Shown: piece after piece, positions 30,638 through 51,680 of the stretch
Numbering within the stretch: position 1 is the stretch's first letter
Layout: each line of letters begins with the position of its first letter
Assembly (NCBI GenBank): GCA_030950365.1
Contig: JAUZRQ010000054.1
Coordinates: 1 to 64,000, forward strand
Length of the DNA: 64,000 nucleotides
Direction: 5' to 3'
DNA from: Candidatus Zhuqueibacterota bacterium
GTDB taxonomy: Bacteria > Zhuqueibacterota > Zhuqueibacteria > Zhuqueibacterales > Geothermadaptataceae
Program-made: the position numbers and the translations under genes
Notes under the pieces: generated by a model
Seen by the model: only the letters and a program-made list of their open reading frames with translations
Database searches by the model: none
What the model was told of the DNA's origin: nothing

Positions 30638-30678
30638 AAAACCAAAAACGCTGCCAGGGAGTGAAACCCTGGCAGCGT
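30638..30678 (-). terminator. Rho-independent terminator of the GHL10 gene
   Basis: A perfect 12-bp stem, ACGCTGCCAGGG / CCCTGGCAGCGT, is followed on the minus strand by TTTTTGGTTTTTGGG. It begins 12 bp past the gene's end and closes the whole export locus. Confidence 0.9.
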
Positions 30679-30690
30679 GGTGCATTCCGT

Positions 30691-33801: not shown

Positions 33802-33867
33802 ATTCGACTCCTGTTTCAATCCTGCACGATGCGCTCAACCCAATTTGCCCATGTTCGGCTACCTATC

Positions 33868-33901
33868 AAAAAAAAGCCGGCAGGGTGGCAGCCCCGCCGG
33901 C
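33868..33901 (-). terminator. Rho-independent terminator
   Basis: On the minus strand a GCCGGCGGGG / CCCTGCCGGC stem with one mismatch runs into eight T residues, just after the propeller-protein gene. It implies partial or full separation from the GHL10 gene that follows. Confidence 0.88.
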
Positions 33902-33926
33902 CTGGTCATAACCGCAAATTCCGGGC

Positions 33927-35294
33927 TTACTTCAGGAACATCATCTGTTTGGCCTTCAACTCACCATCCACCTCAAGGCGATAGTAATAGACGCCCGTCG
34001 GCAGGCCGGTGGCATCAAACAGCACCGCATGCTTGCCAGCGTTCATCTTGCGGTCGAGCAACGTGGCCACCAGACGGCCACGCACGTCATACACGCGCAA
34101 GATCACATGGCTGTCGCGGTTCAGTGAGAACGGAATGGTGGTCGAGGGGTTGAATGGGTTCGGATAATTCTGACCGAGATCGAACGTGACCGGCATGGGC
34201 ACGTTGGTTTCGACGCTCGTCAGCACGCGGTTCCAGACGCTGACCACGTTGTAATCATAGTCGGCCAGATACATGGTCTGGCCGTCTGCGGTCCAGGCGG
34301 CACCACGCGGACTGTACACACCGCCGTCGCTGGAATCATGCGGGACGGGTTTGCCCACGGTCCAGACGATCTCTTTGGTCTGCACATTGAAGGCGTAGTA
34401 CTTGCTGCCGCCGGGGCCGGACCAGTCGCTTCTCAGCTTGCCAACAACCAGGTTGCTGTCCGGATCCCAGTCGAGGCAGCTGGCCCACATTTTCACTTCC
34501 GCCCAGGTAGAGTCGGTGGCCGGATCGTAAACGTTGGTCAGGTTGGCAAAGGTATCCACCGGGGCAAATTTGATCACGCCCGGCAAATCGCTGTGGTACT
34601 GCACCACACCAAATCCGTTCCAGGTCGAGCCCGTGTACAGGTCTTTGCCGTCATAGGAAACCGCAAGAGTCCGGTTGATGTAGCCCAGAGTATCGATGGC
34701 GTTTCCGATCAAGTTGAAATCGTTATCCAAGATGTACACGGGACGTTCTTTGCTCAGCACATAACCGATGTAAATATTGCCGTTGCCGTCCTGTACGGCT
34801 TCGGTCATTGAGTTTTTATCATCCGGAATGAAGCGGTTGAGCACCTTTCCGGTCTTGTAATCGATGCGATACAGAGTAGACCAGGACGTGGCCAGAATGT
34901 TGCCGTCCATATCCACGCTGATGCCCTTGCCGCTGCCGTTGTGGGCGCTTTCGGTCCACAGCGTATCCAGGGTGCCGTCCGGCATTTCGAGCACCTTCAG
35001 GGGCGAGAACGAAACATGCTCACCCGTGTTGGGGTCCAGCACATAGATCGGCCGGTACCAGCCCAGCGTGTCACCATTGGCATTGGTCACGGGCTCGCCA
35101 TGCAAATTGCCATGGATGGACAGCCACACCTTGCCATCCGGGTCGACCGCAACGCCATGGATACCCCAGGCATTGCTCTGCGGCTTCTGAAAATCGAACA
35201 GCAGATGGCTAAACTTCCACACTTCCTGGTCCTGTCCAAAGACATTGCCCACGACAAAAAGCAAAGCAAAGCACACAATAGCTAATTTTTTCAT
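33927..35294 (-). CDS. Secreted beta-propeller protein with type IX-like sorting tail
   Basis: A 455-aa exported protein. Residues 1-20 form a clean signal peptide (ends VFG-QDQ). Residues about 30-360 show repeated blades of the NHL/SMP-30 kind: GIHGVAVDPDGKVWLSIHG, GKGISVDMDGNILATSW, YSPRGAAWTADGQTMYLADY. The C-terminus is a sorting domain with GQNYPNPFNPSTTI and a final KAKQMMFLK. AGGAGG precedes the ATG. A six-bladed propeller on the surface could bind ligands or act as a lactonase-like enzyme; no metal-site pattern is clear enough to choose. It shares NHL-type blades with the adjacent lipoprotein at 35452, so the two may act together. Confidence 0.87.
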   Translation of the reverse strand: MKKLAIVCFALLFVVGNVFGQDQEVWKFSHLLFDFQKPQSNAWGIHGVAVDPDGKVWLSIHGNLHGEPVTNANGDTLGWYRPIYVLDPNTGEHVSFSPLKVLEMPDGTLDTLWTESAHNGSGKGISVDMDGNILATSWSTLYRIDYKTGKVLNRFIPDDKNSMTEAVQDGNGNIYIGYVLSKERPVYILDNDFNLIGNAIDTLGYINRTLAVSYDGKDLYTGSTWNGFGVVQYHSDLPGVIKFAPVDTFANLTNVYDPATDSTWAEVKMWASCLDWDPDSNLVVGKLRSDWSGPGGSKYYAFNVQTKEIVWTVGKPVPHDSSDGGVYSPRGAAWTADGQTMYLADYDYNVVSVWNRVLTSVETNVPMPVTFDLGQNYPNPFNPSTTIPFSLNRDSHVILRVYDVRGRLVATLLDRKMNAGKHAVLFDATGLPTGVYYYRLEVDGELKAKQMMFLK

Positions 35295-35451
35295 GGCAAC
35301 TACCTCCTATTGAACCAGATTGACATTTGAACGCGAGATCCCAATTGTCGTTCTTCGCGCGAGCAATACAACCTTTCCCCGCTGGTTTATCACCTCCCTC
35401 CTGTAGCATGCGTTTGAGGTTCATGAATGGCTGTTTGCGGCTATTGACCTG

Positions 35452-36648
35452 TTACTGTCGTCCAAAATAGGGCGCTCCGTTTTTCAACATATTGATGCGA
35501 ATGATTTTCTTCTTGGTCGCATCCACATTGCGGCGGTTGACATAGAGATACTGGCCATTGCCCCAGACCATCGCATAGGTCTCCGGCTCGATCACGCCCG
35601 GATACAGCGGCTCGAAACTGCCATCCGGATGCACTACAAAAATGGCTTCGGGCGCATTGGTACCGACGTACATGTCGCCGTCTGCGGCAAACGTCAGGCT
35701 CAGCAGGTCGGCATGGCTGCCAATTTTGGCAGTCCAGTCGAAGTACACTTCCTGCGGACCCAGCTCGGTGGCGGACACAATTTTGTTGCGCCAGACCTTA
35801 TGCTCGCCCGTACTGTTATCTTTGCCACCCACGTAAACATAGCCTTCGTACACGCGGATGGTGCGGATGACCACGTTGCCGTAGTCGGCTGCCACTTCGC
35901 TGCTGCCGTCCGGTTTCACGCGGTACACGGCTTTGCCACTGCCACCGCAGTAGATATTACCATTGGGCCCGAAATCGAGATCGAAAGCGCCGCCCGGCAA
36001 GCGCGCAAAAAGACCATCCTTGCCCTGGGGCGAAATCTTGAACATGAAGGGCAAAATGTTGACATAATAAATCGATCCATCCGGCCCGATTTTCATGCCC
36101 GATGCTTTGTCCGCCAGGCTGGTGGTGTAGTCCTGCCGCTCGCCATCCGGCGTGACTTTGACAATTTTCCGGCCTTTCAGCGAGACATACAGGTTTTCAT
36201 CTTTATCGCAGGCGATGGCATAGGCGTCATCGAATTTATCGAAATCGCCCCATTCGATGGCGGCTGGTTCCAGTTTGTACGGATACCACTCGGCAAACAG
36301 GATCGCACCGTCCACCCGCAGCTTGATGCGCACCGAGTCGCCGGTCAGGTTGGGGGCCTTCACCTGCACGGCGGTTGGCGTGGCCGACAAAATCTCGCCT
36401 TTGACGCCATCGAAATACACGTGATTTTCCGCTGGCTCCGAGGAAAAGTTTTCACCGATGAGAGTAACGATGCCAATACCCGCGAAGGTGCCGCCCGGCG
36501 GTTCCACACCCGTGATCACCGGATCGGGGCGCCCCTTCCACTCCGGATCCCAGATGGATGGCGTGGGCTCGGTTCCGCAGGTCACAAGCCAGGCAGAAAT
36601 CGCCAGCAAAACAGCCAATTGCACAAAACGGTTTAGCCGCGACGTCAT
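35452..36648 (-). CDS. Lipoprotein with IPT/TIG domain and NHL-type propeller
   Basis: A 398-aa protein. The signal peptide ends in lipobox WLVTC (Cys about 24). An IPT/TIG domain follows (about 42-125, PVITGVEPPGGTFAGIGIVTLIGENF), then NHL-like blades (IACDKDENLYVSLKG, GMKIGPDGSIYYVN, DLDFGPNGNIYCGGSG). This IPT-plus-NHL architecture is common for surface lipoproteins encoded beside TonB-dependent receptors in Bacteroidota, where they bind glycans. Here it follows receptor B and secreted protein B. AGAGGAG precedes the ATG. There is no sorting tail, consistent with lipid anchoring. A glycan-binding role is inference from architecture and context. Confidence 0.88.
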   Translation of the reverse strand: MTSRLNRFVQLAVLLAISAWLVTCGTEPTPSIWDPEWKGRPDPVITGVEPPGGTFAGIGIVTLIGENFSSEPAENHVYFDGVKGEILSATPTAVQVKAPNLTGDSVRIKLRVDGAILFAEWYPYKLEPAAIEWGDFDKFDDAYAIACDKDENLYVSLKGRKIVKVTPDGERQDYTTSLADKASGMKIGPDGSIYYVNILPFMFKISPQGKDGLFARLPGGAFDLDFGPNGNIYCGGSGKAVYRVKPDGSSEVAADYGNVVIRTIRVYEGYVYVGGKDNSTGEHKVWRNKIVSATELGPQEVYFDWTAKIGSHADLLSLTFAADGDMYVGTNAPEAIFVVHPDGSFEPLYPGVIEPETYAMVWGNGQYLYVNRRNVDATKKKIIRINMLKNGAPYFGRQ

Positions 36649-36694
36649 TTCACTTCTCCTCTAATGACATTGGTCTATTCATCAAGTTCTCGTT

Positions 36695-38848
36695 TCAGCG
36701 AATGATCACAAACTTGCGAATGGCGGTGTCGCCTTTGCGGTATTTCAGCTCGCCGGTTTCCGGATCGCGATAATCCTCGGTGACGGTGAAGTGTGCAATG
36801 TACACACCGCTCACCACCACCTGCCGCGAGCTGGTCACCGAATTCCAGACCTCATCCCCGCTGCCATCGGTGTGGTGGATGGTCTGGATGAGATCACCGC
36901 GCACCGTGTAAATGCGAATGATGCACTTGGCCGGGATGTTCAGAAACATGATTTTGTCCGGCTCGCCCGGATACTGCAAATCGCGGGCACGCACATTGAA
37001 TGGATTGGGCACCACCCGAATTTCCGCCAGCGACTCCCCGGCCTGGCGCCGCAAATACGCCGGCTGGTTGGTTTTGGTGTAAAACCGGCTGCTGTACAGC
37101 GGACCGGTGGGATTGGTCTCGCCGGTCGTGTTGTTGCTGCCGTCGTTAAACGCCACGATGTAGTAATAATACGCCTTGCCGCGCTCGGCCTCGGTATCTT
37201 CATATTCGGTCTCGCCGGGCATGGCGGTGTAGATTTCTTCGAAGGTCGTATCCGGTTTGCCGACCGCGCGGAAAATTTTGTAACCGGCGAAATCCGGCTC
37301 GCCTTCGGACGGGCTCGGCGACCAGCGCAGAAAAATGCGGTCACCGCCGGAAGTCACTTCAAACAGCGGCGGTGGAAGCGGCGGCTGCGGAATCTGGTAT
37401 CCCGCATCATAGTTTCGCTTGGCCCGGCCAAAGGTCAACAGTATCGAATCCTTGCCGGTGTACACCCAGGCATTTTTGAATTCATCTTTATCCGTGGTGG
37501 TGCCGCCATCCGGAAGTGGGAACGGGCCTTTGTCCGTGGGATCATCATAGGCCTTTTTCCAGCGCCGGCCGATTTTTTCGCACATTTGTCGGCTCAGTCC
37601 GGCCACGCCCTCGGCCTCCACGATGGTGATGCTTTCGCCCGGCGCCAGGTCCCACGGCCCGTAACAAATCCAGATGTTGGTGCCGCCGGCGTCGTTGTGC
37701 ACGGTGTACGGATCGGGGTTCGAGGCCATGTATTTCTCATCGAAGCGCTCATTGCCGCCCAGTCCCTGATGCGGATTGCCACTGAGCATGCTGTAGAGCT
37801 GCTTCATTTTGTCGATGGTTTGCGGCGACATATCGCCCAGACTGGGGTAGGTGTCGCCGGCGTGCCAGCCCAACACAATCGGCTGGTTGGAATCGTCGGA
37901 GCGATCCTCCGGGCTTTTATCCACATGCAGCACCACGATACCGGCATGCTGCGGGGCGGTCAAACGGCCGTCGAGCTTGACCGCGGGCCCGCCGATGTTA
38001 TCGAACGCGTTTTTAGCATTCTGTCCGGCCCAGCCGAACCCGCAGCGCAGCCAGTCCACAATGGGATTGGCCTCGGTGATGCGGTCGTTGACGTGCTGAG
38101 CGTAATTCTCGCCGCGTTTGGTCACCCACATGTGCTGTCCCCAGGATTGCGTGCCGCCGATGTGAAACGCGCCCTCGCGGCAAACGCTGTAGCGCACGCC
38201 CCAACTGATGCGCACGCCTTTCAGCGTGGCATTCAGCTCGATCTCATCGTCGTAATCCGTGTTGCCGGTATTGGTGAACGTAAAAATCTTGATGAAATAG
38301 TTGTCATGATATTGCTGACTGAATACCAGGATGCGCCGCGTCAGGGTCAGGCCCATGGAAGTGTTGACCACGTTGGTGATGATGCGATCGGGGATTTGCT
38401 CCGGATCGATCTCGTCCACATCGCCGGCATACGGCGCGGTGATGTTGTAGCCATCCACATACACCACGGGCGGCGGGAATTTGGCCGTTTGTTTGAGCTC
38501 CACCGGAAACAACGATTGGCCCACGTAATCGGCGGCGAAGTAAATGCCGTAACGCTCCCAGTAGCGGCCCTTCTCATCGGTGAAATCCATCACCCCGATC
38601 CAGGCACGCTTGATCACCGCGTTATCCTGGTACGGATAATCCGCCGGCCAGATCAGGCCCTCGTAGTATTTGTTGTTCCAGGCGCGCTCCGAACCGTAGG
38701 CAGAAAAGTGGCTCTGCAGCGAACCGATCCGGACATAGCGCTTTTCCGTGGCTTCCACCTGCGCCTGCAGCTCCGACGCCGAACGCATCCACAGCCCCAG
38801 CACTACCAGCCACGCGCTCAGCCACACCGATTGTCTTCGAATGCTCAT
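36695..38848 (-). CDS. Large secreted protein B of receptor-linked pair
   Basis: A 717-aa exported protein with a signal peptide ending around ASELQAQ. It has no enzyme signature. Residues about 45-470 form a long beta-rich domain with conserved segments shared with the gene at 43247: NVVNTSMGLTLTRRI, FSQQYHDNYFIKIF, AFDNIGGP and GLSRQMCEKIGRRWKK. A fibronectin type III-like domain follows (about 490-590), then a C-terminal domain with VVPNPFNVRARDL and IRIYTVRGDLIQTIHHTDGSGDEVWN, ending FVIIR, resembling a sorting tail. It starts 24 bp after receptor B. Together they look like a receptor plus surface partner, analogous in position to SusC/SusD but unrelated in sequence to SusD as far as I can see. 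Confidence 0.8.
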   Translation of the reverse strand: MSIRRQSVWLSAWLVVLGLWMRSASELQAQVEATEKRYVRIGSLQSHFSAYGSERAWNNKYYEGLIWPADYPYQDNAVIKRAWIGVMDFTDEKGRYWERYGIYFAADYVGQSLFPVELKQTAKFPPPVVYVDGYNITAPYAGDVDEIDPEQIPDRIITNVVNTSMGLTLTRRILVFSQQYHDNYFIKIFTFTNTGNTDYDDEIELNATLKGVRISWGVRYSVCREGAFHIGGTQSWGQHMWVTKRGENYAQHVNDRITEANPIVDWLRCGFGWAGQNAKNAFDNIGGPAVKLDGRLTAPQHAGIVVLHVDKSPEDRSDDSNQPIVLGWHAGDTYPSLGDMSPQTIDKMKQLYSMLSGNPHQGLGGNERFDEKYMASNPDPYTVHNDAGGTNIWICYGPWDLAPGESITIVEAEGVAGLSRQMCEKIGRRWKKAYDDPTDKGPFPLPDGGTTTDKDEFKNAWVYTGKDSILLTFGRAKRNYDAGYQIPQPPLPPPLFEVTSGGDRIFLRWSPSPSEGEPDFAGYKIFRAVGKPDTTFEEIYTAMPGETEYEDTEAERGKAYYYYIVAFNDGSNNTTGETNPTGPLYSSRFYTKTNQPAYLRRQAGESLAEIRVVPNPFNVRARDLQYPGEPDKIMFLNIPAKCIIRIYTVRGDLIQTIHHTDGSGDEVWNSVTSSRQVVVSGVYIAHFTVTEDYRDPETGELKYRKGDTAIRKFVIIR

Positions 38849-38872
38849 GAATGTCTGCGCTCGTTTTCGCTT

Positions 38873-41800
38873 TTAAAAATTGATCTTGATTCCAAACACC
38901 ACGTCCTTTGGATTCAAAAACGTCAATGCTCGAATATTGGGCATGTCGATATAAGATTTCTTGCGCTTGCGCTCCTCATTGCGCTTGCGGATTTCCGGAT
39001 CATTGTTGGGATTGGGCTCCAACGGGTCATACGGCACATCGTCGGGTCGGTACTCGCCGATGCGATCGTGCCCCTTTTCGACCCCCTCTTCCCACTCAAA
39101 ATTGAGAGACTCGAGATAGTCGAGATAATCGTACCGATCCGAAAATGCGGCGTAATTGAGAAACTTGAAATTGAACAGATTGCGCACGTCGACGTAGGCC
39201 TGCACCTCGGCCCGGCCCATCTTGAACGCCTTCGACAGCCGCATATCCACGTTGTACCAGTCCTTCCAGCGCACGTTATCCACCACGCCCGGGATGCTGT
39301 TCGGATTATAGGTTTCATAACGGCCGGAATACCACTCGGCCAGGAAGCTGCAGCGCCAGTCGCCGAGGATGTAATGCCCGAGCCAGAAGGGGCCCCATTT
39401 TTTCGGGGTCTGGATGGTGATATTGGCGCGCGCGTACGGCCGCGGGCGCGGCTTTTCCTGGTACGGATTCAGCCGCAGATACTCGCGCTGCTTGTTGGGG
39501 TCCTCGTAATAGGCGGTGAGGCCAAAATAGCCGGACGTGCGCACGTCGTAGGTGTAATTGATAAACCCGGTGACCCAGCGGCCGCTGCGTTTGGTGAGCG
39601 TGATCTCAAAGCCGCGGATGTCCTGATAATTGTTGCTGGCGGCCTTGTAATACTGCACCGAATTGTCGATGCTCTGATAATAAATCCAGCCGGGCTGATT
39701 GGTCACATCCTTGTAGTAGGCCGCAATGTTCAGTAAAAATTCCTCGAACAGGCTCTGGGCATAGCCTACCTCATACGCCACCGTTTTTTCCAGATGCATC
39801 CATGGGTTGCCAACATAGGTCACCAGGCCGTTGGATTCACGCTGCAGTCGGAACCGGTATGACGACGCCGGCTCGGAGCGAAAGTGGCCGTAGTTGAAAT
39901 ACAGCTTCGAGGATTCCGTGATTGGATGCGATACCCCCAGCCGCGGGCTCAGGGTCAAACTGGGCTCGGCCTTCTCGCGCGGCGCCTCCAATTCGATGGC
40001 CTTGCCGTAGCCGGCTTTGAAATATTTGGCATACGGATCGAGCGCAAAAAATTCCGTATTCGGATCCGAGTAATCCAGCCGCAGCCCGACATTGGCGATG
40101 AACCCCTGAAATTCCAGCTTGTCCTGCACATACACGCCGATGCGGTACGGGAACACATCGTATTTCATGCTGCGCGTCCAGGTCGGCATGGATGGGCTGT
40201 AGGTGGAAGAGCGGATGCGGTAGTCGTTGTACACCACCTGTATCCCCGCCTTGACCTGGTTGTGCGGATTGAGCTGGCTGGTCAGATCGAAACGGAAAGA
40301 GGTCGTGGTATTGACGCTGCGGTCGCGGCCCAGATTCATCCAGCCGCCCATGATCATGCCATCGATGCCATTGACGCTGTAGCCCCAGTAGCCAAACGGC
40401 GCCTCATCGACGAAGAAGCCGGGCACCACTTCATAGCGCCGAGTGGTATCGCGCGTGGCCATTTGATAAGTTTTGTAGCGATTGATATTGTGCTGCAGGC
40501 TGAATTCATAAAACGTCTTCGGGCTCACCACATGCGTGATCTTCAGGCCGATCATCGTACGGAAGATGCTGCTCGGGCTGTAAAATCCCGGCATGTACAG
40601 GATGGCGCTGCCATAGCTGCTGTTCAGGAGATTGGCCACTTCGTACGGCGTGCGCAACACATAGCCCGTCGGCGTGGTTTTCCAGTTGTACGGCGACACC
40701 GAGTGGATTTCGCCGTACAGCAGGGTGGCAATCATTTTGGTGGAAGAGGTGATGTCTGAGGTCAATTTCAATTGCGTGTGGTGATCGAAATAGCTGTCGC
40801 GCGACAGCGGGAAGATGAACATCTCACGCTCGCGGAAATGCGACAGATAGAACCGCAAATTACCCAGCGGCCGCCCGATCAGCGGCAACGGGCCGCCAAA
40901 GCCGACATCGACCACGAAGTCGGGTTTGGTAATGTCGCCCTGCCGCCGCCGCTGCCAGCGGAACAACCTTTGCGCCGCCTCGGGCGTCAGGTCGTTGGTC
41001 GGATCATCATCCTGCATGGTGGCTTCCGACACGGCATACCAGCCCTCGAAATTGGGATACTGCCGCCGCGTGTATTCGTCCCAGTAGGAACGCACACCGT
41101 CGCCATTCAAATCGCGAAAGGGTTCGCCGGGGTCCCAGCGTCCATTGCTGTTCACATCGGTGAAGGGCTCGCCCACGTTGGTGCCGTACCAGCACACGGC
41201 ATCGTCCAGGTACGGCCGGTTGAAATACGAATTGGGATCGTACAGGGACGGTCCGAAGTGCTTGGGTGCCGGTGGCCGATACTGAATCGAAGCCACGGCC
41301 ATGTAGCGCTTGCGGTCGCCCTCGCGGGTGACCACATTGATGAGCCCCGAGCGCAAGTTGCCGTATTCGGCATTGAAGCCGCCAGTCTGAATTTTGATTT
41401 CGCGCAGGGCACTCAGACCCACCGCCGTGTATGGAAAATTGGACCGTTCGTCATTCAATGACAGGCCATCCACCAGAAAGACGGTTTGATTGGCCGCGCC
41501 TCCGCGCACGATGAAACCGCGGCTACCGCGCTCGATGCCGGCCTGCAGGGTGATCACCTCATCGACCGTTTTCACCGGCAGCTTTTCGATCACTGCGGCT
41601 TCCACGTTCATCTGGCTTGCGGAGACGTCCTTTTGCACCACCGGCCGTTCTGCCACAACCACCACCTCTTCGCCGGCAATCACCACCGGCCGCAGCTCCA
41701 CATCGATGGTGGTGGTCAGTTCCATCTCCACTTTGACATCTTTTTCCACATGCGTGGCATAGCCAATCATGCGAAAGCTCACATTGTAATGACCGGGTGG

Positions 41801-42001
41801 CACATTCAGAATCACGTAATAGCCGTTGGCATCGGTCGCGGCGCCCAGATCGGTGCCTTCCACCACCACATTCACGCCGGGCAGACCGCTACCGCTCTCG
41901 GCATCGCGCACGTATCCGGCGATCTTGCCCGTGGTGCCGGCGAATGCGTACCACGGCCCTAATACAAATCCGATTATCGCAAGCCAGGCCAAGCGCATCA
42001 T
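38873..42001 (-). CDS. TonB-dependent receptor B with carboxypeptidase-regulatory domain
   Basis: A 1042-aa receptor. The start at 42001 is chosen because GGAGAG lies 6 bp upstream; the frame extends to 42028 without a better site. After the signal peptide comes a CarboxypepD_reg-like domain (GTTGKIAGYVRDAESGSGLP to RMIGYATHVEKD), then a hydrophobic VVIAGEEVVVVAERPVVQKD box. The plug domain carries FIVRGGAANQTVFLVDGLSLNDE, and a very large barrel ends FGIKINF. It closely resembles the receptor at 45365 in order and sequence, so the two are paralogues. Putative Ca-binding-like DVNSNGRWDPGEPFRDLNGDG occurs in an extracellular loop (about residues 285-305), absent from the paralogue. The ligand is unknown but probably large, as for SusC-like receptors. 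Confidence 0.93.
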   Translation of the reverse strand: MMRLAWLAIIGFVLGPWYAFAGTTGKIAGYVRDAESGSGLPGVNVVVEGTDLGAATDANGYYVILNVPPGHYNVSFRMIGYATHVEKDVKVEMELTTTIDVELRPVVIAGEEVVVVAERPVVQKDVSASQMNVEAAVIEKLPVKTVDEVITLQAGIERGSRGFIVRGGAANQTVFLVDGLSLNDERSNFPYTAVGLSALREIKIQTGGFNAEYGNLRSGLINVVTREGDRKRYMAVASIQYRPPAPKHFGPSLYDPNSYFNRPYLDDAVCWYGTNVGEPFTDVNSNGRWDPGEPFRDLNGDGVRSYWDEYTRRQYPNFEGWYAVSEATMQDDDPTNDLTPEAAQRLFRWQRRRQGDITKPDFVVDVGFGGPLPLIGRPLGNLRFYLSHFREREMFIFPLSRDSYFDHHTQLKLTSDITSSTKMIATLLYGEIHSVSPYNWKTTPTGYVLRTPYEVANLLNSSYGSAILYMPGFYSPSSIFRTMIGLKITHVVSPKTFYEFSLQHNINRYKTYQMATRDTTRRYEVVPGFFVDEAPFGYWGYSVNGIDGMIMGGWMNLGRDRSVNTTTSFRFDLTSQLNPHNQVKAGIQVVYNDYRIRSSTYSPSMPTWTRSMKYDVFPYRIGVYVQDKLEFQGFIANVGLRLDYSDPNTEFFALDPYAKYFKAGYGKAIELEAPREKAEPSLTLSPRLGVSHPITESSKLYFNYGHFRSEPASSYRFRLQRESNGLVTYVGNPWMHLEKTVAYEVGYAQSLFEEFLLNIAAYYKDVTNQPGWIYYQSIDNSVQYYKAASNNYQDIRGFEITLTKRSGRWVTGFINYTYDVRTSGYFGLTAYYEDPNKQREYLRLNPYQEKPRPRPYARANITIQTPKKWGPFWLGHYILGDWRCSFLAEWYSGRYETYNPNSIPGVVDNVRWKDWYNVDMRLSKAFKMGRAEVQAYVDVRNLFNFKFLNYAAFSDRYDYLDYLESLNFEWEEGVEKGHDRIGEYRPDDVPYDPLEPNPNNDPEIRKRNEERKRKKSYIDMPNIRALTFLNPKDVVFGIKINF

Positions 42002-42132
42002 GCGAGCTCTCCAAATCCAGTGAACCATCTTGTCTTTCCCGACACCGGCCTGTCCCGGCCGGTCAGCCTTCCATTCCAGCCAGTTGCCCCAATAGCCAAC
42101 TCCCGTCCCCCCTGCCTCCGCAGCCGTCCTGC

Positions 42133-43146
42133 TTACAGCGAAAACCGCACCGTGAACCGGTTGATATTGCCAAACACGTCAAACGGCATGTACGAATAAT
42201 CCAGAGCAAAACCGAACGACCGGATACCGAACCCCGCAGTCATGTTGTATTCTTCGCGATTCAGCAAATAGCCAAACCGCAGAGCAATGAGGTCCATGAA
42301 CACGTATTCGGCACCGTAGCTGACGTATTCCGGATAGGAACGCGGATGTACCGCATCCAGCGAAATGAACAGCTTGTGGCTACTGGCATCGATCTGCGGG
42401 AAGAAATCCAGCGCGTTGATGGAAATGCCGATTTTAAACGTCAACGGAAGCTGAAAACCTTCTTTTTCGTATTTGATTTCGCGCGACAGGTTGCGCACGG
42501 TCATGCCAAAGACCAGGCTCTTGAACCCGGTTTTGTACTGAGTTCCAAAATCGAACGCGAACACGCTCAGGTCGTAGTCCTGCTCCTCGATCAGAGTATC
42601 GGTTTCGGTGTAGATCGGCACCAGACTCTTGCCCAACCGCTGATAAACGTATTTGATCTGCCCGCCAACAACAAATCGGTCGGTGAGTTCCTTGCTATAG
42701 CCGAAACCGACTGCCAGCGCCGTGGGCATGGCCCAGTCTCCGCCGATGTCCTCATAGCCCTGTTCCGTTGGAGCGACGCGCGTCCACAGGAATTCGCCGT
42801 AATCCACGGTCAGGAAGCTCAGCCCGAACACGCCATACTGGCCATCGGCTGGACGGAACGCCAGCGCACCCGAAACGTATTCGATGTCGGCGATCCATTT
42901 CATTTTATTCAGCGACACGTCCAGCAATGTCGGGATGCGCGCCATGCCGGATGGATTGTAGAACAGCGCAGCCGAGGTGCCTTCGACCGTGGTGAACGCC
43001 TCGCCCATGCCGGTGGCCCGGGCGTCCACGCCCACGCTCATAAACTGAAAGCCCGTCTGCGCCAGCTTTTTCTGCGCATTTGCATTAAAGGCAACCAATC
43101 CACTCAACAGCAGGATTGCCGCGAAATACCCTCGACGGATCAACAT
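42133..43146 (-). CDS. PorV/UPF0164-like outer-membrane barrel protein
   Basis: A 337-aa exported protein. The ATG at 43146 has AAGGAG 7 bp upstream and is preferred over an upstream TTG at 43152. After the signal peptide the mature N-terminus reads TGFQFMSVGVDARATGMGEAFTTVEGTSAALFYNPSGMA, the hallmark of the PorV/PorQ/UPF0164 family of FadL-like barrels. In type IX secretion PorV is the outer-membrane carrier of sorting-tail proteins. It sits between the two receptor/secreted-protein modules in a locus whose products carry sorting tails, which supports an export role. The final RFTVRFSL strand fits a barrel. No PorU or PorK/L/M/N homologues lie in this window. Confidence 0.88.
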   Translation of the reverse strand: MLIRRGYFAAILLLSGLVAFNANAQKKLAQTGFQFMSVGVDARATGMGEAFTTVEGTSAALFYNPSGMARIPTLLDVSLNKMKWIADIEYVSGALAFRPADGQYGVFGLSFLTVDYGEFLWTRVAPTEQGYEDIGGDWAMPTALAVGFGYSKELTDRFVVGGQIKYVYQRLGKSLVPIYTETDTLIEEQDYDLSVFAFDFGTQYKTGFKSLVFGMTVRNLSREIKYEKEGFQLPLTFKIGISINALDFFPQIDASSHKLFISLDAVHPRSYPEYVSYGAEYVFMDLIALRFGYLLNREEYNMTAGFGIRSFGFALDYSYMPFDVFGNINRFTVRFSL

Positions 43147-43246
43147 TGCCAATCTCCTTCGTTATATCCCATCGTTTTCATGGGTCACGTGCTCATGCCT
43201 TGCGGTCGAGTCGCGGCCGCAGGCTATCGGCCCGGCCGGAAGCCGT

Positions 43247-45319
43247 TTATCGAATAACCACGAATTTCCGAAACGTCTTTTCGCCGTCGGGCGTCTCAAA
43301 AACCACGATGTACACACCGCTGACGATGACCTGACCGTATTTGGTAACCGAGTTCCAGGCCTCGTCACCGCTTCCGTCGGTATGCTCGATGGTATAGATC
43401 AGATCGCCACGCTCGGTGAATATTTTGATGGTGCATACGGGCGGCAGGTTCAGGAACATGATGCGGTCCGGACCGCTCTGCCCGAACTGCAAATCGCGAG
43501 CGCGAATGTTGTACGGATTCGGCACCACGCGGATTTCCTCCAGCGATTTGCCGGCGGCGCGCCGCAGGTAGGCCGGCTCGTTGGTCATGGTGTAGAACCG
43601 GCTGCTTTCCAGCGGCACCCCCGGATGGATGTCGTTGGTGCTGCCGTCATCGTACGACACGATGTAATAGTAATAATCGAAACCGCGTTGCGGCGTGGTA
43701 TCTTCATAGCGGTTGACAATTTCCGGGTGATCGGTTCCCGGGCCGCATTCGAAAATCAGCTCATAGGTCGAGTCCGGCACATGGATAGCGCGGTAGATGC
43801 GGTAGCCCCGGAAAGTCGGCCACGACTCGGCGTTGTCGGACCATTCGAGGATGATGCGGTCGCCACCGGAGGTCACCGTGAACTTTTCGGGCGGGGGCGG
43901 GGGCATCGGCACAGTGAAGCCCGATTTCCAGTTGGCAATGGCGCGTTTGAACGTCTGTGCCAGCGAATCCCGCCCGGTGAACACCCATGCATTTTTGTAT
44001 TCGTCCTTGTCGTTAGTGGTTGAGCCATCGGGAAGCACAAATGGCCCGGTGCCTTTCAGCCAGCGTGCACCGATGCTGAAACAGGAGTCCCGGCTCAGGC
44101 CAGCCAAGGCTTCTACCAGAACAATGTGGATGCTGTCGCCGGGAGCCAGGGTATAAGGGCCGAATCCCTGCGTATGCGAAAACCCACCTGGCGTGCCGCC
44201 GAACAGGTCGGCAAAGCCATCGCCCACTGCTTCCGCATGCGTCAGCTCCGGATGCCCGGCGGTCATGGCCGCATATTCCTGCGCCATTTTCTGCGCATTG
44301 AACTGATCATTGCCGGAGGTAATGGGATTGTCGGAGTCGAGATACATCGTGGTGGTGGGCTGATTCGGATCGTGCGACTTATCCGTGGCCGATTTATCGG
44401 CATGCAGCGTCATGACGCCCGGATGCTGGGCCGCGCTGAGCCGGCCGTCGCCGCCTTCCCCCCCCCAAGGACCACCGATGTTATCGAACGCGGCCTTAGA
44501 GTGGCGGCCATGCCAGGAGTACAGAGCCAGAAATTCTTCGCCGGTTTCCGGATAAATCACGTGCATGGTATCGTTCATCGTGTTATGCCCCCAGGATGAA
44601 GACTGCGGCAGGAAGTAGTAGCCGTACGGACCGCCCTCGCGAGATGGGGCATATCGGTACTGAAAATAGAATACCACGCCTTCCAGAGTCTGCTGGTACA
44701 CCGTGCCCTTCTTATCGATGATGCCGGTGTTTTTAAACACATAATCGTAAATGAAATAGTTGTCGTGGTTCTGCTGGCTAAACGCATAAATTTTGCGCGT
44801 CATAGTGATGCCGATGGCGGTATTCACGACATTGTACAGCATGCGGTCGGCCGGCAGGTTCTCGTCGATTTCATCGACGAAATCTAGGAAATCCAATTTG
44901 CCAGCGGGCACTCCATCCACCGTCACAATGGATTTGGGGAACCGGCCAATGAGCTTAAATTCCACCGGCATGAATTCGTTTTCTTCATCCAGCACGCGGG
45001 GCCCCACGTGCACGACTTTATAATCGAAGGTTTTATCCACCAGCGGATCGTAGTAATTGGTCGCGCCGATCCACAGCGCCTTGGCGGCCTTGCTGTCCTG
45101 ATAGCGGAATTGCGCCGGCCAACGCAGGCCGTCCTGCTGGTCGGAAACCAGATGCGTTCGTCCCACTTCGATCTCGCAACCGGCACTGGAGTACCAGTCG
45201 TGCAGCATGCCGACGGCGATCCATTTTGTTTCATCCGCAACCGCATTCTGGCCGGCATACAGCATCAGCGATAGGACGAAGGACAAAGCACGCATCACAA
45301 ACTGTCTTTTTCCGCTCAT
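43247..45319 (-). CDS. Large secreted protein A of receptor-linked pair
   Basis: A 690-aa exported protein starting at 45319 (AAGGAAAG upstream), with a signal peptide ending at QNAVA-DET. It is a paralogue of the 36695 product: shared segments include NVVNTAIGITMTRKI, FSQQNHDNYFI, AAFDNIGGP, GLSRDSCFSIGARWLK, a fibronectin type III-like domain (about 460-570), VVPNPYNIRARDLQ and a GDLIYTIEHTDGSGDEAWN tail ending KFVVIR. Nine consecutive G residues on the coding strand (44458-44466 in window coordinates) encode the Trp-Gly-Gly of GGPWGGEGGDGR, an insertion relative to the paralogue. It follows receptor A by 45 bp. Its role is unknown; I expect a surface-exposed partner of the receptor. Confidence 0.8.
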   Translation of the reverse strand: MSGKRQFVMRALSFVLSLMLYAGQNAVADETKWIAVGMLHDWYSSAGCEIEVGRTHLVSDQQDGLRWPAQFRYQDSKAAKALWIGATNYYDPLVDKTFDYKVVHVGPRVLDEENEFMPVEFKLIGRFPKSIVTVDGVPAGKLDFLDFVDEIDENLPADRMLYNVVNTAIGITMTRKIYAFSQQNHDNYFIYDYVFKNTGIIDKKGTVYQQTLEGVVFYFQYRYAPSREGGPYGYYFLPQSSSWGHNTMNDTMHVIYPETGEEFLALYSWHGRHSKAAFDNIGGPWGGEGGDGRLSAAQHPGVMTLHADKSATDKSHDPNQPTTTMYLDSDNPITSGNDQFNAQKMAQEYAAMTAGHPELTHAEAVGDGFADLFGGTPGGFSHTQGFGPYTLAPGDSIHIVLVEALAGLSRDSCFSIGARWLKGTGPFVLPDGSTTNDKDEYKNAWVFTGRDSLAQTFKRAIANWKSGFTVPMPPPPPEKFTVTSGGDRIILEWSDNAESWPTFRGYRIYRAIHVPDSTYELIFECGPGTDHPEIVNRYEDTTPQRGFDYYYYIVSYDDGSTNDIHPGVPLESSRFYTMTNEPAYLRRAAGKSLEEIRVVPNPYNIRARDLQFGQSGPDRIMFLNLPPVCTIKIFTERGDLIYTIEHTDGSGDEAWNSVTKYGQVIVSGVYIVVFETPDGEKTFRKFVVIR

Positions 45320-45364
45320 AATGGCTTTCCTTGCTTGAGGTTCAAAGCGCATCTGTTTTCAAAC

Positions 45365-48300
45365 CTAAAAGCGATAGTTGAATGTCAGACCAATGAAAAT
45401 GCTGCGCGGATTGAGGAACGTGAAAAAGGTTTGATTCGGCATATCGATGTAGGCCTTGGTATCCAGGATTTCCTTGATCCTGCCGCTGTCCACCTCTTTC
45501 CAGTTGTCGTTTACATACTGCATGTATTTCCGGGTCCTGGCATCCCAGTAAATCACCTTCGGATTCGGATCGCGGAACTGGTTGATATCAGCGACCCATT
45601 CCATGGGCTGAAATTCCACGCCCTCTTTGCGGTAATCGCCCGGGCGATCGTTACCAGGAATATTGCCATAGCCGAGGGTCTTGCCAATGTCTTCCGGCAG
45701 GTGCAACGATTTCATGTAATAGTTGAAATCATGCAGGTTAAAAAACGACACACCGGAGAAGCGGCGGATATTGAACAGGTTGAAGATGTCGGCGAAAAAG
45801 CGGACATCGAATTTATCAAAGGAGAAAGTCTTTGAAATCTTTAAATCAACATTATAGTAATCCCGCCACTGCACATTGTATTCGATTCCGGGGACATTGT
45901 TGGGATTCCAGGTAAACCAGCTCCCGGCCGTCCAGTAGCCGATGAAATTGAAATTCCATCCGGCCAGCGGACGGTGCCCGGCAAGCATCGGGCCAAAATC
46001 CTGCGGAGTGTGCAGATTCAGTGTGGACTTCACCCGCGGACGGGGCCGGGGTTTGAATTGAGGCGGATTGCGGCGCAAATATTCGCGCTGTTCGGCCGGA
46101 TTCTCGTAATAGATCGCCGAGCCGAAATACGCCGAGGTCCCCACCCGGTACTCGTAGTTGATATGGCCGGTAAACCAACGGCCCCACATTTTGGTCAGCT
46201 CGAGCTCGAAGCCGCGAATATCTTCGTAGCTGTTGTTGGTCAGCTTGCGGTAATTGACCTTGCCATCGAAGCTGATGTAGCGGACCCAGAATTCCTGATC
46301 CGTGATATCTTTGTAGTAAGCGGAAATATGTAGCAGGTAGTTACTGAACAGCGCGTGCTCATAGCCCAGCTCGTAGGCCACGGTTTTAGCCAGGGGGATG
46401 GTCGGATTGCCGATAAAATCCACCTGATTGGTGAGCGAACGCTGCACGCGGTACAACCGCTCGGATGTGGCCACCTGGCGGTAGTGACCATAGTTGAAAT
46501 ACAGCTTGGAATTCTCGGTAATCGGATGCGACACCGCGAGCCGCGGGCTGAATGTCAGCCGCGGTTCGGCGCGCTTCTTCAGGAATTTTTCCTCATCCTC
46601 CGGCCGGAATTTCTGCGAGAAAAATTCGCGATCGTAATCGGTTACATCGTACCAGTTGCCATTGGGATTGGTGTATTCCGTCACAAGACCGACGATGGAA
46701 ATGAAGCCTTTGAATTCCAGCTTGTCTTGCAAATAATAGGTAAGGCGGTAAGGATTGCGACGGATGCGCGTCCAGGTGTTGCCTTCCGGCAGGAATTTAT
46801 TCACCATGCCGAAACTCATGTTGAAATCATCATAAACGAACTCGAGCCCAGTTTTGACCTGGTTGTTGCTGTTGATCTGACTGATCAGGTCGATTTTGGC
46901 CGTGGTTGTGGTCACCCGGCTGTAGTCGCGAGAGGTGCTGACCGCGCCGCCCATCCCCAGACCGTCGATGCCAAACACCGGGTTCTCTTCAAAACCGTAC
47001 GGCGCTTCATCCACGAAGTATCCGGGGAAAATTTCGTATTTTTTGGTACGGTCGCGATGCCGGCCAGGCGCCGTGAAGTATTTCTTACCCACGCGCTTGA
47101 CATAAACCTCGTAGAACGTGCTCGGACTCAATACATGCGTGAATTTCGCGGACAGCGCATGGTAATAGCGCGAAGTCGGCGACCAGTAGATGTTGGTGTA
47201 AATCCGCCAGGGCACGGTGAAGCCGGCACGGTTCATTTGTCTGGCCACGTCATACACGCTGGTCATCATGGCCGTGCCGCCACTGCGGGACAGTGACGTT
47301 CCGTGAGTTTCGCCATAAATGCCTAGAACCGAGAGCTTCATATTGGAGCCGACGTCCGAGGTCAGCTTCAGCATAAGAGTTTGCTTGGTAAGCGCGTCGC
47401 GAGATAGCTCGATGAGATACATGTCGCGTTCCTGCCGGTAGGACGCGTAAAATCGTAAGTTCCCGAGCATTTTACTCACCAGCGGCACCGGTCCGCCAAA
47501 TCCCGCGTCGATGTAGTAATCCGGCTTATCGATTTCACCCTGTTTGCGGTGCTCCCACATGAAAATACGCTGTGCCGCTTCCGGAGTCAGATCATTGGTC
47601 GGATCATCATCCTGCAGGGTGCGCTCAGAAACCGCCACCCAGCCCTCGAATTCCGGATACTGGCGCTGCATGAACTCGTCCCAGGCGCCGTTTTTGGTGC
47701 CGGTCCAGCACACCGCCGGGTCCAGATACGGCCGCAGCCAGAACGAGTTGGGATCGTACGGCGAAATGCCGAAATGCTTGGGAGCCGGCGGACGGATCTT
47801 GTAGGTGATGGTGCCGGTATAGCGGTCCGGATCGCCCTCTTTGGTGACCACGTTGACCACACCGGATCGCAGGTTGTGATATTCCGCCCCGAAACCGCCG
47901 GTCTGCACCGAGACTTCCTGCACAGCGCTCAAGGGAATTTCTGCGATAGGACGATTGGTACGCTCATCGCGCAGGACCACGCCATCTACCATGAACAACG
48001 CCTGATCCGGCCCGCTACCGCGGATAGACAAGCCCGACGTGATTCCGGCTTGTAAGCCTATAATCTCGCTTACCGAGGTCATGGGCAAATCGCGAATCTG
48101 ATTCGAAGTGATGCTTTTATGACTGGCGGCCACATCCGGCTGCACCACCGGCCGTTCCGCCAATACCACCACCTCTTCGGTGGCCAGCACCACCGGCGTC
48201 ATTTCAATATCAATATTGGCAGTCAAATCGATCTGCACGCGCACATTCTGTATGGTGACATCGGCATAGCCAATCATGGTGGCCTTCAGTTTGTACACCC

Positions 48301-48514
48301 CCGGAGGCACATTCAGGATCACATAATAGCCGTCTGTATTGGTCGCCGCACCGATGGATGTGCCCTCCAGGAAGACATTGACCCCGGGCAGGGCTTCCCC
48401 GGTTTTCTTGTCCCTGACCGTGCCCGCAATTTTGCCGGTCGTGCCGGCGTAAATCGAGCTGCTCATCAGCACCAGGACAAGAGAAAGGCAAAAGCGGCGG
48501 AGCGCTGTGCTCAT
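45365..48514 (-). CDS. TonB-dependent receptor A with carboxypeptidase-regulatory domain
   Basis: A 1049-aa receptor and the first gene of the long export locus. GGAGG lies 7 bp before the ATG. The signal peptide ends at SSIYA-GTTG, the same mature start as the paralogue at 38873. A CarboxypepD_reg-like domain follows (GTTGKIAGTVRDKKTGEALP), then the VVLATEEVVVLAERPVVQPD box and a plug with GLSIRGSGPDQALFMVDGVVLRDE. The barrel ends in FIGLTFNYRF, a canonical C-terminal aromatic. The Ca-loop-like insertion of receptor B is missing, so extracellular loops differ while the barrel skeleton is conserved. This suggests duplication followed by divergence in ligand specificity. Energy would come from a TonB complex encoded elsewhere. 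Confidence 0.93.
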   Translation of the reverse strand: MSTALRRFCLSLVLVLMSSSIYAGTTGKIAGTVRDKKTGEALPGVNVFLEGTSIGAATNTDGYYVILNVPPGVYKLKATMIGYADVTIQNVRVQIDLTANIDIEMTPVVLATEEVVVLAERPVVQPDVAASHKSITSNQIRDLPMTSVSEIIGLQAGITSGLSIRGSGPDQALFMVDGVVLRDERTNRPIAEIPLSAVQEVSVQTGGFGAEYHNLRSGVVNVVTKEGDPDRYTGTITYKIRPPAPKHFGISPYDPNSFWLRPYLDPAVCWTGTKNGAWDEFMQRQYPEFEGWVAVSERTLQDDDPTNDLTPEAAQRIFMWEHRKQGEIDKPDYYIDAGFGGPVPLVSKMLGNLRFYASYRQERDMYLIELSRDALTKQTLMLKLTSDVGSNMKLSVLGIYGETHGTSLSRSGGTAMMTSVYDVARQMNRAGFTVPWRIYTNIYWSPTSRYYHALSAKFTHVLSPSTFYEVYVKRVGKKYFTAPGRHRDRTKKYEIFPGYFVDEAPYGFEENPVFGIDGLGMGGAVSTSRDYSRVTTTTAKIDLISQINSNNQVKTGLEFVYDDFNMSFGMVNKFLPEGNTWTRIRRNPYRLTYYLQDKLEFKGFISIVGLVTEYTNPNGNWYDVTDYDREFFSQKFRPEDEEKFLKKRAEPRLTFSPRLAVSHPITENSKLYFNYGHYRQVATSERLYRVQRSLTNQVDFIGNPTIPLAKTVAYELGYEHALFSNYLLHISAYYKDITDQEFWVRYISFDGKVNYRKLTNNSYEDIRGFELELTKMWGRWFTGHINYEYRVGTSAYFGSAIYYENPAEQREYLRRNPPQFKPRPRPRVKSTLNLHTPQDFGPMLAGHRPLAGWNFNFIGYWTAGSWFTWNPNNVPGIEYNVQWRDYYNVDLKISKTFSFDKFDVRFFADIFNLFNIRRFSGVSFFNLHDFNYYMKSLHLPEDIGKTLGYGNIPGNDRPGDYRKEGVEFQPMEWVADINQFRDPNPKVIYWDARTRKYMQYVNDNWKEVDSGRIKEILDTKAYIDMPNQTFFTFLNPRSIFIGLTFNYRF

Positions 48515-49340: not shown

Positions 49341-50570
49341 TCAATAAATCAAATATTTCCGCCGCTTTTGCATGAACCAACGCAAATCGGCCTCCCAGCT
49401 TCGCATGATGGCATCCGGATGTTGGCCGGCCAGCAGGGCCAGACGCACTTTGTCGGTGCCCATGGCGCGATCGAACTGTTTCTTTCGTGGCGTGCGGAAG
49501 ATGTTGTGGCGCTGATACAATGTGAGCAGCGCATGCAAAAGGTGCATCTGAGTGCGCATGGGAGAAAATTTGACCGGATCCAGAATGTGGATTTGAACGC
49601 CGCCCAGCTCCTGATTCTGAAAACGAAAGTAGTACGGCCGGAAATAGCACGGACGAAAATACACGCCGGGCAGGTTGCGCCGGTTCAGCTCGGCGGCCAG
49701 CCGCTCCGGATCGATCCATTTCTGGCCGATGAGCTGGAAGGGCTGCGTGTAGCCAACGCCCTCGGATACGGTTTGCAATTCGCCAATGATACCGGTCGTG
49801 GCGCAGTACAGCGCGGTCTTGGCGTGCGGAATGTGTGGTGACGTCGCCACCCACTGCAGCCCGGTATCCGGCCAGCGCATGTCGCGGCGGTAACCCCGCA
49901 TGGGCACCACGCTCAAATCGCAGTGAATACCAAACTCGTTGTTGATAAACCGCGCCAGCTCCCCGACGGTCATGCCGTAAATGTACGGAATCGGATACAG
50001 GCCGATGAACGATTTGAAATTTTCTTCCAGCACCGGCCCTTCGATGAGCTCGCCGCCCAGCGGATTGGGCCGGTCGAGCACCACAAACGGGATGCCTTTT
50101 TCCGCAGCGGCCTGCATGGCCAGGGCCATGGTGTAAATGTACGTGTAAGTGCGGTTGCCGATGTCCTGAATGTCGTACACCAGCATGTCGATGTTTTTAA
50201 GCATCTCCGACGTGGGCTTGCGTACGCGACCGTAAAGGCTGTACACCGGCAGGCCGGTCTTTTTATCCACGTAGCTGGCGACCCGCTTGCCGGCCATGAT
50301 GTTGCCGCGCACGCCGTGCTCGGGCCCGAACAGGGCCACCAGCCGCACGCCCGGCGCGTTTTTCAATACGTCGATGGTCGATCGCAAATCTGCGGTCACG
50401 CCTGTGGGATTGGTAATCAGCCCAACCTGTCGGCCCTGCAATAAATCAAAATGCCGTTCGATCAGCACATCGATGCCGGGCTTGACCTGTGCTCTTACGG
50501 AATAGGCATTAATGATGGAAACCATTAGAACCACAAACAACATGGAACAATAACGCTTGAACCGATTCAT
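49341..50570 (-). CDS. namZ: NamZ/DUF1343 exo-beta-N-acetylmuramidase
   Basis: A 409-aa exported protein of the DUF1343 family. Characterised members (NamZ) release MurNAc from the non-reducing ends of peptidoglycan fragments. The signal peptide runs from the start at 50570 to SVRAQ; a 14-codon longer frame is possible. Family motifs: GLITNPTGVTADLRSTIDVL, LFGPEHGVRGN (with the Glu-His pair), DMLVYDIQDIGNRTYTYIYTMALAM, VVLDRPNPLGG, and EGVGYTQPFQLIG. The length is normal. Two genes upstream on the same strand is an AmpG-like muropeptide permease, with a GNAT protein between. That supports a peptidoglycan salvage role in the periplasm. Confidence 0.92.
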   Translation of the reverse strand: MNRFKRYCSMLFVVLMVSIINAYSVRAQVKPGIDVLIERHFDLLQGRQVGLITNPTGVTADLRSTIDVLKNAPGVRLVALFGPEHGVRGNIMAGKRVASYVDKKTGLPVYSLYGRVRKPTSEMLKNIDMLVYDIQDIGNRTYTYIYTMALAMQAAAEKGIPFVVLDRPNPLGGELIEGPVLEENFKSFIGLYPIPYIYGMTVGELARFINNEFGIHCDLSVVPMRGYRRDMRWPDTGLQWVATSPHIPHAKTALYCATTGIIGELQTVSEGVGYTQPFQLIGQKWIDPERLAAELNRRNLPGVYFRPCYFRPYYFRFQNQELGGVQIHILDPVKFSPMRTQMHLLHALLTLYQRHNIFRTPRKKQFDRAMGTDKVRLALLAGQHPDAIMRSWEADLRWFMQKRRKYLIY

Positions 50571-50780
50571 AGGACCATCAACCGTTCTACATTTTTGTGC
50601 CATCATATCCACTGATGCAACCCGTTATCATCGCGGCTCCGCCAGCCAACAGATACTGGAATCTTTTTCCAGAAATCATAGAATAAAAGTTGGGCCGGTC
50701 ATTGGCTTCCGACGGATAGCCGCTGAGAACCGAAATGTCCTATCGTGGAGCAGGTGGAATCATTCTGTAAGCCCAGATTT

Positions 50781-51680
50781 TTAAAGCGTCTTTTGATAGC
50801 GGTAAAACACGCGCGAGATTTCGGCACCGGCATAATGTAGATAAAACGCAATCGGGCCGACCCAGGGGATGGTGGCAAAGCGGTGCCCCTGCTCCTTGAT
50901 GTCCTTCAAACAGCGTCGCAGCAGCACACCGCCGATGCCCTTGCCGCGGTAGTCCGGATCGGTGCCCATGGGGCCGAACCAGCCGGTACGGAAATTGTTG
51001 CAATCGTGGGCGGAAAAGGCCACCACGCGGCCATCCACCAGCGCCAGGTGGAGACTGATGGGGTAGTTTAGCAAACTGCGCTGCACCTCTTCAATCCACG
51101 CCGGCCAGTGCTGCCGCAACAGCGTTTCCAGGTCCTCCCAATCGCCCATGATGGCGCGGCGGACTTCGATCCCCTTCCCGGCCAGCCGCTGCTCCTCCGC
51201 CTCCGTATCGAAATTCTCGCGGCTCAAATCCGCCTCCATGTTCCAGGTCTCGCCGATGCGCTCGTAGCTCTGTTTTTCAAAAAACACCATGCCGCGCGTG
51301 TAGCGTGCATCGATGCCCGGATTGAGGTAGTTCGGCGCCGATTCGCACACCCGCACCACCGGCGCGCCTCCGGCCTTCAATCGCTGTTCCACTTCTTTCA
51401 CCAGGCGACTGCCAATGCCGCGCCGCTGGAATCTTTCATCCACCACCAGCAACTTGATGAATCCCGCGTTTTCGGGCATGCCGGTACGGATCAAGCCCAT
51501 GATGAAGGCGATGATGGTGTTGTCATGCTCCACCACCAGCGCCAGCTCCTCGCTGAAATCTTTGTCGTCCCAGACTTTTTCTTCCAGCAATTCCGGCGTG
51601 AGCTGGTCATAACGCATGTTGCGATTCCACAGGGCCAGCAGCGCCTCGATGTCGCTATCGCGAAGGTGCCGCATTTTCAT
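50781..51680 (-). CDS. Double-GNAT-domain acetyltransferase
   Basis: A 299-aa cytosolic protein with two tandem GNAT folds. The first (about 1-150) has acetyl-CoA loop FQRRGIGSRLV. The second (about 170-299) has YRGKGIGGVLLRR. Both match the R/Q-x-x-G-x-G/A motif, so both might bind acetyl-CoA. Its ATG overlaps the stop of the AmpG-like gene (ATGA), so the two are translationally coupled. It precedes namZ by about 210 bp. In this context it could acetylate an amino sugar or recycled peptide, but the substrate cannot be read from the sequence. Confidence 0.9.
   Translation of the reverse strand: MKMRHLRDSDIEALLALWNRNMRYDQLTPELLEEKVWDDKDFSEELALVVEHDNTIIAFIMGLIRTGMPENAGFIKLLVVDERFQRRGIGSRLVKEVEQRLKAGGAPVVRVCESAPNYLNPGIDARYTRGMVFFEKQSYERIGETWNMEADLSRENFDTEAEEQRLAGKGIEVRRAIMGDWEDLETLLRQHWPAWIEEVQRSLLNYPISLHLALVDGRVVAFSAHDCNNFRTGWFGPMGTDPDYRGKGIGGVLLRRCLKDIKEQGHRFATIPWVGPIAFYLHYAGAEISRVFYRYQKTL

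Follow-up and report, generated by a model that had tools for sequence, protein, structure and literature searches.

SusC-SusD pairs (SusCD) are the textbook route of glycan uptake. Another TonB-dependent arrangement has been solved in BtuB-BtuG, where the receptor has a propeller lipoprotein as its partner (PMC10404256). Surface proteins can also be held by barrels associated with the type IX secretion system (T9SS). PorU and PorZ are anchored at the surface by PorV and PorQ (PMC5562754, PMC7463736), and proteins with a type B C-terminal domain (CTD) use dedicated PorP/SprF-like barrels, encoded alongside them, for secretion and anchorage (PMC9143113, PMC12618676). Here we describe a cassette in which a TonB-dependent receptor is paired with a CTD-bearing secreted protein (hereafter Sec) and accompanied by a PorV-like barrel. 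It lies in a stretch of 64,000 nucleotides of Candidatus Zhuqueibacterota bacterium, hereafter the window (positions 1 to 64,000 of contig JAUZRQ010000054.1, assembly GCA_030950365.1). The cassette is real and widespread; its parts are of known kinds, and we found no description of it in the open literature searched. What appears to be new is the combination: a TonB receptor, a partner probably exported by the type IX system, and a PorV-like anchor belonging to the cassette. We know of no earlier case of a TonB receptor with a surface partner delivered and anchored by the type IX machinery. On balance, we lean towards a SusCD-like uptake cassette whose surface partner, Sec, is unrelated to SusD and would be anchored by the PorV/PorQ-like barrel.

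Receptor-Sec pairs and their recurrence

The window encodes two receptor-Sec pairs. In the direction of transcription, RecB (45365..48514, 1049 aa; CarboxypepD_reg PF13715 and Plug PF07715) is followed by SecB (43247..45352, 701 aa, or 690 aa from the second Met), an outer-membrane barrel of the PorV/PorQ family (42133..43152, 339 aa), RecA (38873..42028, 1051 aa, with the same two domains, recognised by Pfam and by comparison with RecB) and SecA (36695..38848, 717 aa). The gaps between receptor and Sec are 12 and 24 bp. The receptors are 46% identical (936 bits) and the Sec proteins 42% (470 bits, E = 5e-161), paralogous over their full length in either case. An earlier note, made from the letters of the window alone, had described two paralogous pairs on one strand around a PorV-like gene, and it was right on each count: all five genes are on the minus strand and the intervening barrel matches the PorV/PorQ-family model NF033709 with 186.2 bits (cut-off 90). 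The unit nevertheless exceeds the span 36695-48514 considered there. Close-packed downstream on the same strand are genes for a TIG and beta-propeller (NHL) lipoprotein (35452..36648, 398 aa, PF01833) with a lipobox-like signal, a candidate surface glycan-binding accessory, and for an NHL/SMP-30-like propeller with a canonical type A CTD (33927..35294, 455 aa; PF08450, PF18962, TIGR04183 30.7 bits), up to a strong terminator-like hairpin of 12 pairs and a T run (33874..33903, minus strand) that closes a seven-gene unit.

We surveyed 40 neighbourhoods from 60 searched relatives and at least 80 from GTDB genomes, i.e. 120 loci with 176 Sec genes, the number of loci being slightly inflated by cases where both sets include the same contig. 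A receptor gene lies directly 5' of 155 of the 176 Sec genes, and eight more Sec genes are at contig ends. The remaining 13 are mostly second or later tandem copies; otherwise Sec is preceded by a displaced PorV-like gene, a fragment or a gene of no recognised type. Receptor and Sec genes often overlap, and the median gap between them is 20 bp. The cassette is carried by KSB1, Calditrichota, Neomarinimicrobiota, Ignavibacteria/Melioribacteraceae and Delongbacteria. The pairing, which the earlier note had proposed to look for elsewhere, does recur: receptor and Sec form obligate pairs in five or more phylum-level groups, in every case that the contig allows, and far beyond chance. Searches with SecB and RecB gave matches in 60/60 relatives, some of those to SecB covering the tail only, and the Sec family is larger than the loci surveyed.

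Pairs also diverge together. Across 128 pairs, receptor and Sec tree distances are correlated at r = 0.926. When Sec proteins were swapped among the pairs of a locus (34 loci), the mean was r = 0.52 and the maximum 0.71, and 0/1000 trials reached the observed value. Receptor-Sec pairs are inherited as units, with no reshuffling after duplication, which is not by itself proof of contact.

The other components are nearly as constant. A PorV-like gene is present in 91 of the 94 loci with room downstream, and the propeller lipoprotein is nearly always in the cassette. The commonest counts of receptor, Sec, PorV-like and lipoprotein genes are 1:1:1:1 (46 loci) and 2:2:1:1 (22 loci). Because of these counts, we regard receptor and Sec as tied one to one, and barrel and lipoprotein as shareable between two pairs. 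This matters for an alternative in which the receptor is capped by the TIG and propeller lipoprotein, as BtuB is by BtuG, and Sec is an extra protein at the surface that binds glycans or acts as a scaffold. In its favour, the lipoprotein is predicted to form a beta-propeller, has a lipobox-like signal in 76/87 homologues and rarely leaves the cassette, and the solved BtuB-BtuG pair provides the precedent. However, one lipoprotein often serves two receptors where Sec stays 1:1, and the immediate neighbour of the receptor is Sec and not the lipoprotein. We consider this alternative unlikely, and favour Sec as the protein that would sit on the receptor. The earlier note had missed that the conserved cassette includes the PorV-like gene and the propeller lipoprotein. 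Nor had it recognised the barrel as the likely anchor, or an amino-sugar glycan as the likely substrate.

The architecture shows several variations. Genomes have from one to several cassettes, and remote versions (L053, L068 and L072; about 31-33% identity to SecB) retain the order receptor, Sec, PorV, propeller. One of these, L053 (G000:C80), is a third, divergent cassette in the same genome as the window. In about 40 loci (e.g. L073, L097, L114, L120 and L129) an extra small gene of 170-340 aa stands between Sec and the PorV-like gene; its product has a lipobox-like signal in 35/40 cases, and the one tested had no Pfam match. At least three Sec genes occur in tandem in L063, L064 and L065, resembling an expanded repertoire of surface partners; in L063 the run stands after a single receptor and a PorV-like gene. 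Other receptors form a second tier at about 33-35% identity to RecB (e.g. G020:C1:686603 and G022:C5:96592); no Sec neighbour is listed for them, and they may have a different partner family. Finally, a locus labelled Euryarchaeota archaeon (L128) carries the cassette with a gene order resembling that of Neomarinimicrobiota, and its label or binning is probably wrong.

Fold and probable export and anchoring of Sec

Neither SecA nor SecB matches a Pfam family. The AlphaFold2 model of SecB, built with 55 relatives, has a mean predicted local distance difference test (pLDDT) of 90.1 and a predicted template modelling score (pTM) of 0.88; the large domain alone (residues 36-486) reaches 91.3 and 0.92. 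The model consists of a beta-rich large domain with few helices, an FN3 domain (residues 498-577; E = 2.5e-4 to solved FN3 domains by profile, and Foldseek) and a CTD. This agrees with the earlier description of the Sec proteins as sharing a large uncharacterised domain, FN3 and a sorting-like tail, the last matching T9SS CTD profiles. Among the best 50 Foldseek matches of the large domain we found only glycoside hydrolase (GH) families GH94, GH65, GH116 and GH161, related glucan-synthase or glycosidase entries, and copper amine oxidases, most of which share the supersandwich fold (SCOP b.30). E-values go down to 1e-7, with a template modelling score (TM) of about 0.36 and 8-12% identity to the GH94/GH65/GH116 proteins. 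The large domain is thus modelled as weakly supersandwich-like, resembling the N-terminal domain of these enzymes, with a TM too low for a secure claim of the same fold.

These matches raise the question of whether Sec is itself a surface carbohydrate enzyme of supersandwich type, e.g. a lyase or a mutarotase, that merely feeds the receptor. Its best fold matches are indeed carbohydrate-active proteins. Yet GH94/GH65/GH116-type proteins catalyse with an alpha/alpha barrel, which is absent from the Sec models, and the match is weak. Few polar residues of the large domain are invariant among 55 sequences, and both the tandem arrays and the constant 1:1 pairing with a receptor are more in keeping with a binding partner than with an enzyme. 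We therefore judge an enzymatic Sec improbable and retain a binding partner. The possibility, raised with the earlier note, that the large domain would prove to be a known SusD-like or enzyme fold is answered in part: no SusD was among the best 50 matches, and the likeness to GH94, GH65 and GH116 is weak and lacks their catalytic part.

Sequence, fold and lipidation all confirm that Sec is not SusD-like. Sec as a SusD was excluded by Pfam, SusD was absent from the best 50 PDB matches of either Sec model (full length or large domain), and there was no convincing lipobox in 157 Sec proteins; the regular-expression matches in 27 of them involve a Cys within the mature protein or the signal core. 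Because it has no convincing lipobox, Sec cannot be held like SusD. Its tail may offer another route. Among 55 members, the CTD matched (E <= 0.01) the PorZ model in 39, the PorU model in 12 and the generic type A model TIGR04183 in 22; the two downstream CTD proteins of the window show the reverse preference, their tails being better matched by the generic type A model. The barrel of the window falls under the equivalog cut-offs for PorV proper and PorQ proper (72.8 and 81.7 bits vs 250 and 220), and its match to the PorV structure 6h3i is marginal (E = 0.007). The SprA translocon is encoded in the genome of the window (716 bits) and in 40/40 relatives, all over the cut-off. From these sequences, we infer that Sec is probably exported by T9SS, held by the neighbouring PorV-like barrel and working with its own receptor. 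By analogy with PorU and PorZ, the simplest reading is that this barrel would receive and hold Sec.

The same likeness could point to a specialised module for envelope assembly or T9SS attachment, with Sec akin to PorZ, the barrel akin to PorQ, and a receptor that senses or assembles without uptake. The PorZ-type CTD and the PorV/PorQ-family barrel are consistent with it, and PorZ is among the Foldseek matches of the SecB model. However, sequence similarity to PorZ is limited to the CTD, genomes may have several cassettes, and the neighbourhood consists of glycan catabolism with ROK-type and LacI-type regulators rather than lipopolysaccharide or secretion genes. Such a module is very improbable in our view.

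Neighbouring genes and the probable substrate

Downstream of the seven-gene unit, the window encodes a GHL10 glycosidase-like enzyme with two Big_5 domains and a type A CTD (30691..33819, minus strand, 1042 aa; PF02638 134.3 bits vs a cut-off of 27.9). The only solved relative found is Cwp19 (E = 1.7e-27), whose GHL10 domain is a peptidoglycan lytic transglycosylase (PMC6016235). Because of its Big_5 domains and type IX CTD, which it adds to the domain in common with Cwp19, the window enzyme is probably on the surface. The GHL10 domain is also carried by DigH. Using Pfam models in the relatives, we found GHL10 within 20 kb of Sec in 25/45 genomes, against 1/46 for the control SpoIID. At the gene level this corresponds to 29/131 GHL10 genes vs 1/93 SpoIID genes (Fisher p ~ 1e-6, genes of related genomes not being independent). 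Weak phmmer matches to GHL10 (about 40-170 bits) were not counted by themselves; some are cross-matches of the CTD, e.g. L119:16218-17693, which is a GH18.

Upstream of RecB on the same strand are genes for a NamZ exo-beta-N-acetylmuramidase (49341..50612, 423 aa; PF07075 300 bits, PF20732), an AmpG-like muropeptide transporter of the major facilitator superfamily (51677..53557, 626 aa; TIGR00901 153 bits, under the cut-off of 350) and a GNAT protein. Outside the class, cassettes adjoin a GH18 with a CTD (L119), GH20 (L127), GH84 (L136) and NagB-type genes (L140, L149). In Neomarinimicrobiota (L117, L120, L129), the neighbours are NagZ-type GH3, a NagZ-PBP4B fusion, SpoIID and a sodium symporter. 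The fusion, of a NagZ-type GH3 and a PBP4B/beta-lactamase-like part, stands immediately 5' of the receptor in L120 (3846-6803, plus strand), and L117:3835-6756 looks alike. In four genomes (G060-G063), the six GH3 genes present all lie no more than 14 kb from Sec, an illustrative figure only, as the loci were picked by their neighbours. Together, the GHL10, NagZ, NagZ-PBP4B, GH18/20/84, NagB, NamZ and AmpG-like neighbours suggest glycans of N-acetylglucosamine (GlcNAc) and N-acetylmuramic acid (MurNAc). Peptidoglycan is favoured as the substrate in the window, and chitin for some other cassettes.

An uptake cassette would then work as follows. A Sec-type signal would start the export of the protein, which would cross the outer membrane via T9SS using its CTD. 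The CTD would stay bound to the PorV/PorQ-like barrel of the cassette, like PorZ on PorQ and PorU on PorV. Anchored in this way, Sec may sit on its own receptor, capture oligosaccharides and pass them over, and TonB would power their entry into the periplasm. Outside, the glycan would be supplied or cut by the propeller lipoprotein and a CTD-bearing GHL10 or chitinase; inside, NamZ, NagZ, NagB and symporters would use the products. The substrates would belong to the beta-linked GlcNAc/MurNAc glycans, and in the window they would probably be strands of peptidoglycan.

Several observations weigh against this reading, or against its substrate. Co-divergence is expected of any stable operon. The SecB tail scores 18.6 bits, where TIGR04183 requires 23. 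Linkage of NamZ to the cassette is seen in just 5/47 genomes, and four of these share one gene order; compared with SpoIID at 20 kb this gives p = 0.11, and the linkage is no more than suggestive. We rejected SpoIID (57902-59524) as part of a peptidoglycan cluster in the window, as it is the single one of 93 SpoIID genes in the relatives within 20 kb of Sec and is probably there by chance. The GHL10 enzyme DogH is reported to be active on starch (PMC9967864). Finally, some cassettes are beside other glycosidases (GH92 and GH2, in L127 and L110), and many have no informative neighbour. Hence the import of something other than an amino-sugar glycan, with amino-sugar neighbours limited to certain lineages, is a serious if lesser possibility. 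This alternative bears on the substrate alone and leaves room for the machine proposed here. The linkage of GHL10 in more than half of the genomes, and the repeated occurrence of various GlcNAc-active enzymes beside cassettes of several phyla, argue instead for amino sugars.

The remaining features of the window are a second hairpin 3' of the GHL10 gene (30678-30648) and a peptidase of family M49 (55157-56827, dipeptidyl peptidase III-like) with a lipobox-like signal. The M49 family is mostly cytosolic, hence this signal is unusual. Opposite the receptor and Sec genes, the plus strand has long open reading frames (e.g. 36791-39736), which we discarded as unsupported antisense frames, and no RNA families were found at 30000-50000.

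Comparison with known systems

If the reading proposed here is true, this would be, to our knowledge, the first TonB receptor with a type IX-delivered, type IX-anchored surface partner. The cassette may be a main route of glycan uptake in several abundant uncultured phyla, and it leads to a direct prediction of which organisms consume the walls of dead bacteria in sediments and in the dark ocean. The suggestion of the earlier note, an analogue of SusCD built from a different surface partner, stands as far as the obligate pairing, the non-SusD partner and the glycan-foraging neighbourhood go; the receptor-Sec complex, the lid and the transport we infer. More specifically, the lid would be a type IX-secreted, non-lipidated supersandwich protein on a dedicated PorV/PorQ-like barrel, independent of SusD, that forages for peptidoglycan or chitin oligosaccharides across KSB1, Calditrichota, Neomarinimicrobiota and Ignavibacteria. 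We advance this full version tentatively, as a possibility that we do not expect to hold in every part.

Compared with the type IX systems, the cassette resembles PorZ-PorQ and PorU-PorV in having a surface protein with a type A-like CTD beside a PorV/PorQ-family barrel. It differs from them in that Sec has neither the propellers of PorZ nor the protease domain of PorU and is tied to a TonB receptor. With the type B CTD proteins and their PorP/SprF-like shuttles it shares a dedicated barrel gene beside the CTD substrate, but its barrel is of the PorV/PorQ family and its CTD is type A-like. Like BtuB-BtuG, it is a TonB transporter with a surface partner that is not SusD, and it also has a propeller lipoprotein; Sec itself is neither a propeller nor a lipoprotein.

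The closest parallel in organisation is SusCD/RagAB. Against the SusC/RagA model TIGR04056 (cut-off 368), RecA and RecB score 57.3 and 63.4 bits, over their N-terminal part only. Five SusD_RagB matches occur in the genome of the window, all on contigs other than this one; 37/60 relatives have none. SusCD and the Sec cassette coexist in this genome, and the latter is more general in the clade. Because the tests of SusC score, SusD family, SusD fold and lipidation all fail, the cassette is not a member of SusCD. By its anatomy, it would work like SusCD: both have a TonB receptor with a CarboxypepD_reg domain, an obligate adjacent surface partner, duplicated pairs and glycosidase neighbours, whereas the partner in the Sec cassette carries a CTD and comes with a PorV-like barrel of its own. 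The Sec cassette is apparently a separately evolved counterpart of SusC-SusD, aimed at cell-wall or chitin-type amino sugars.

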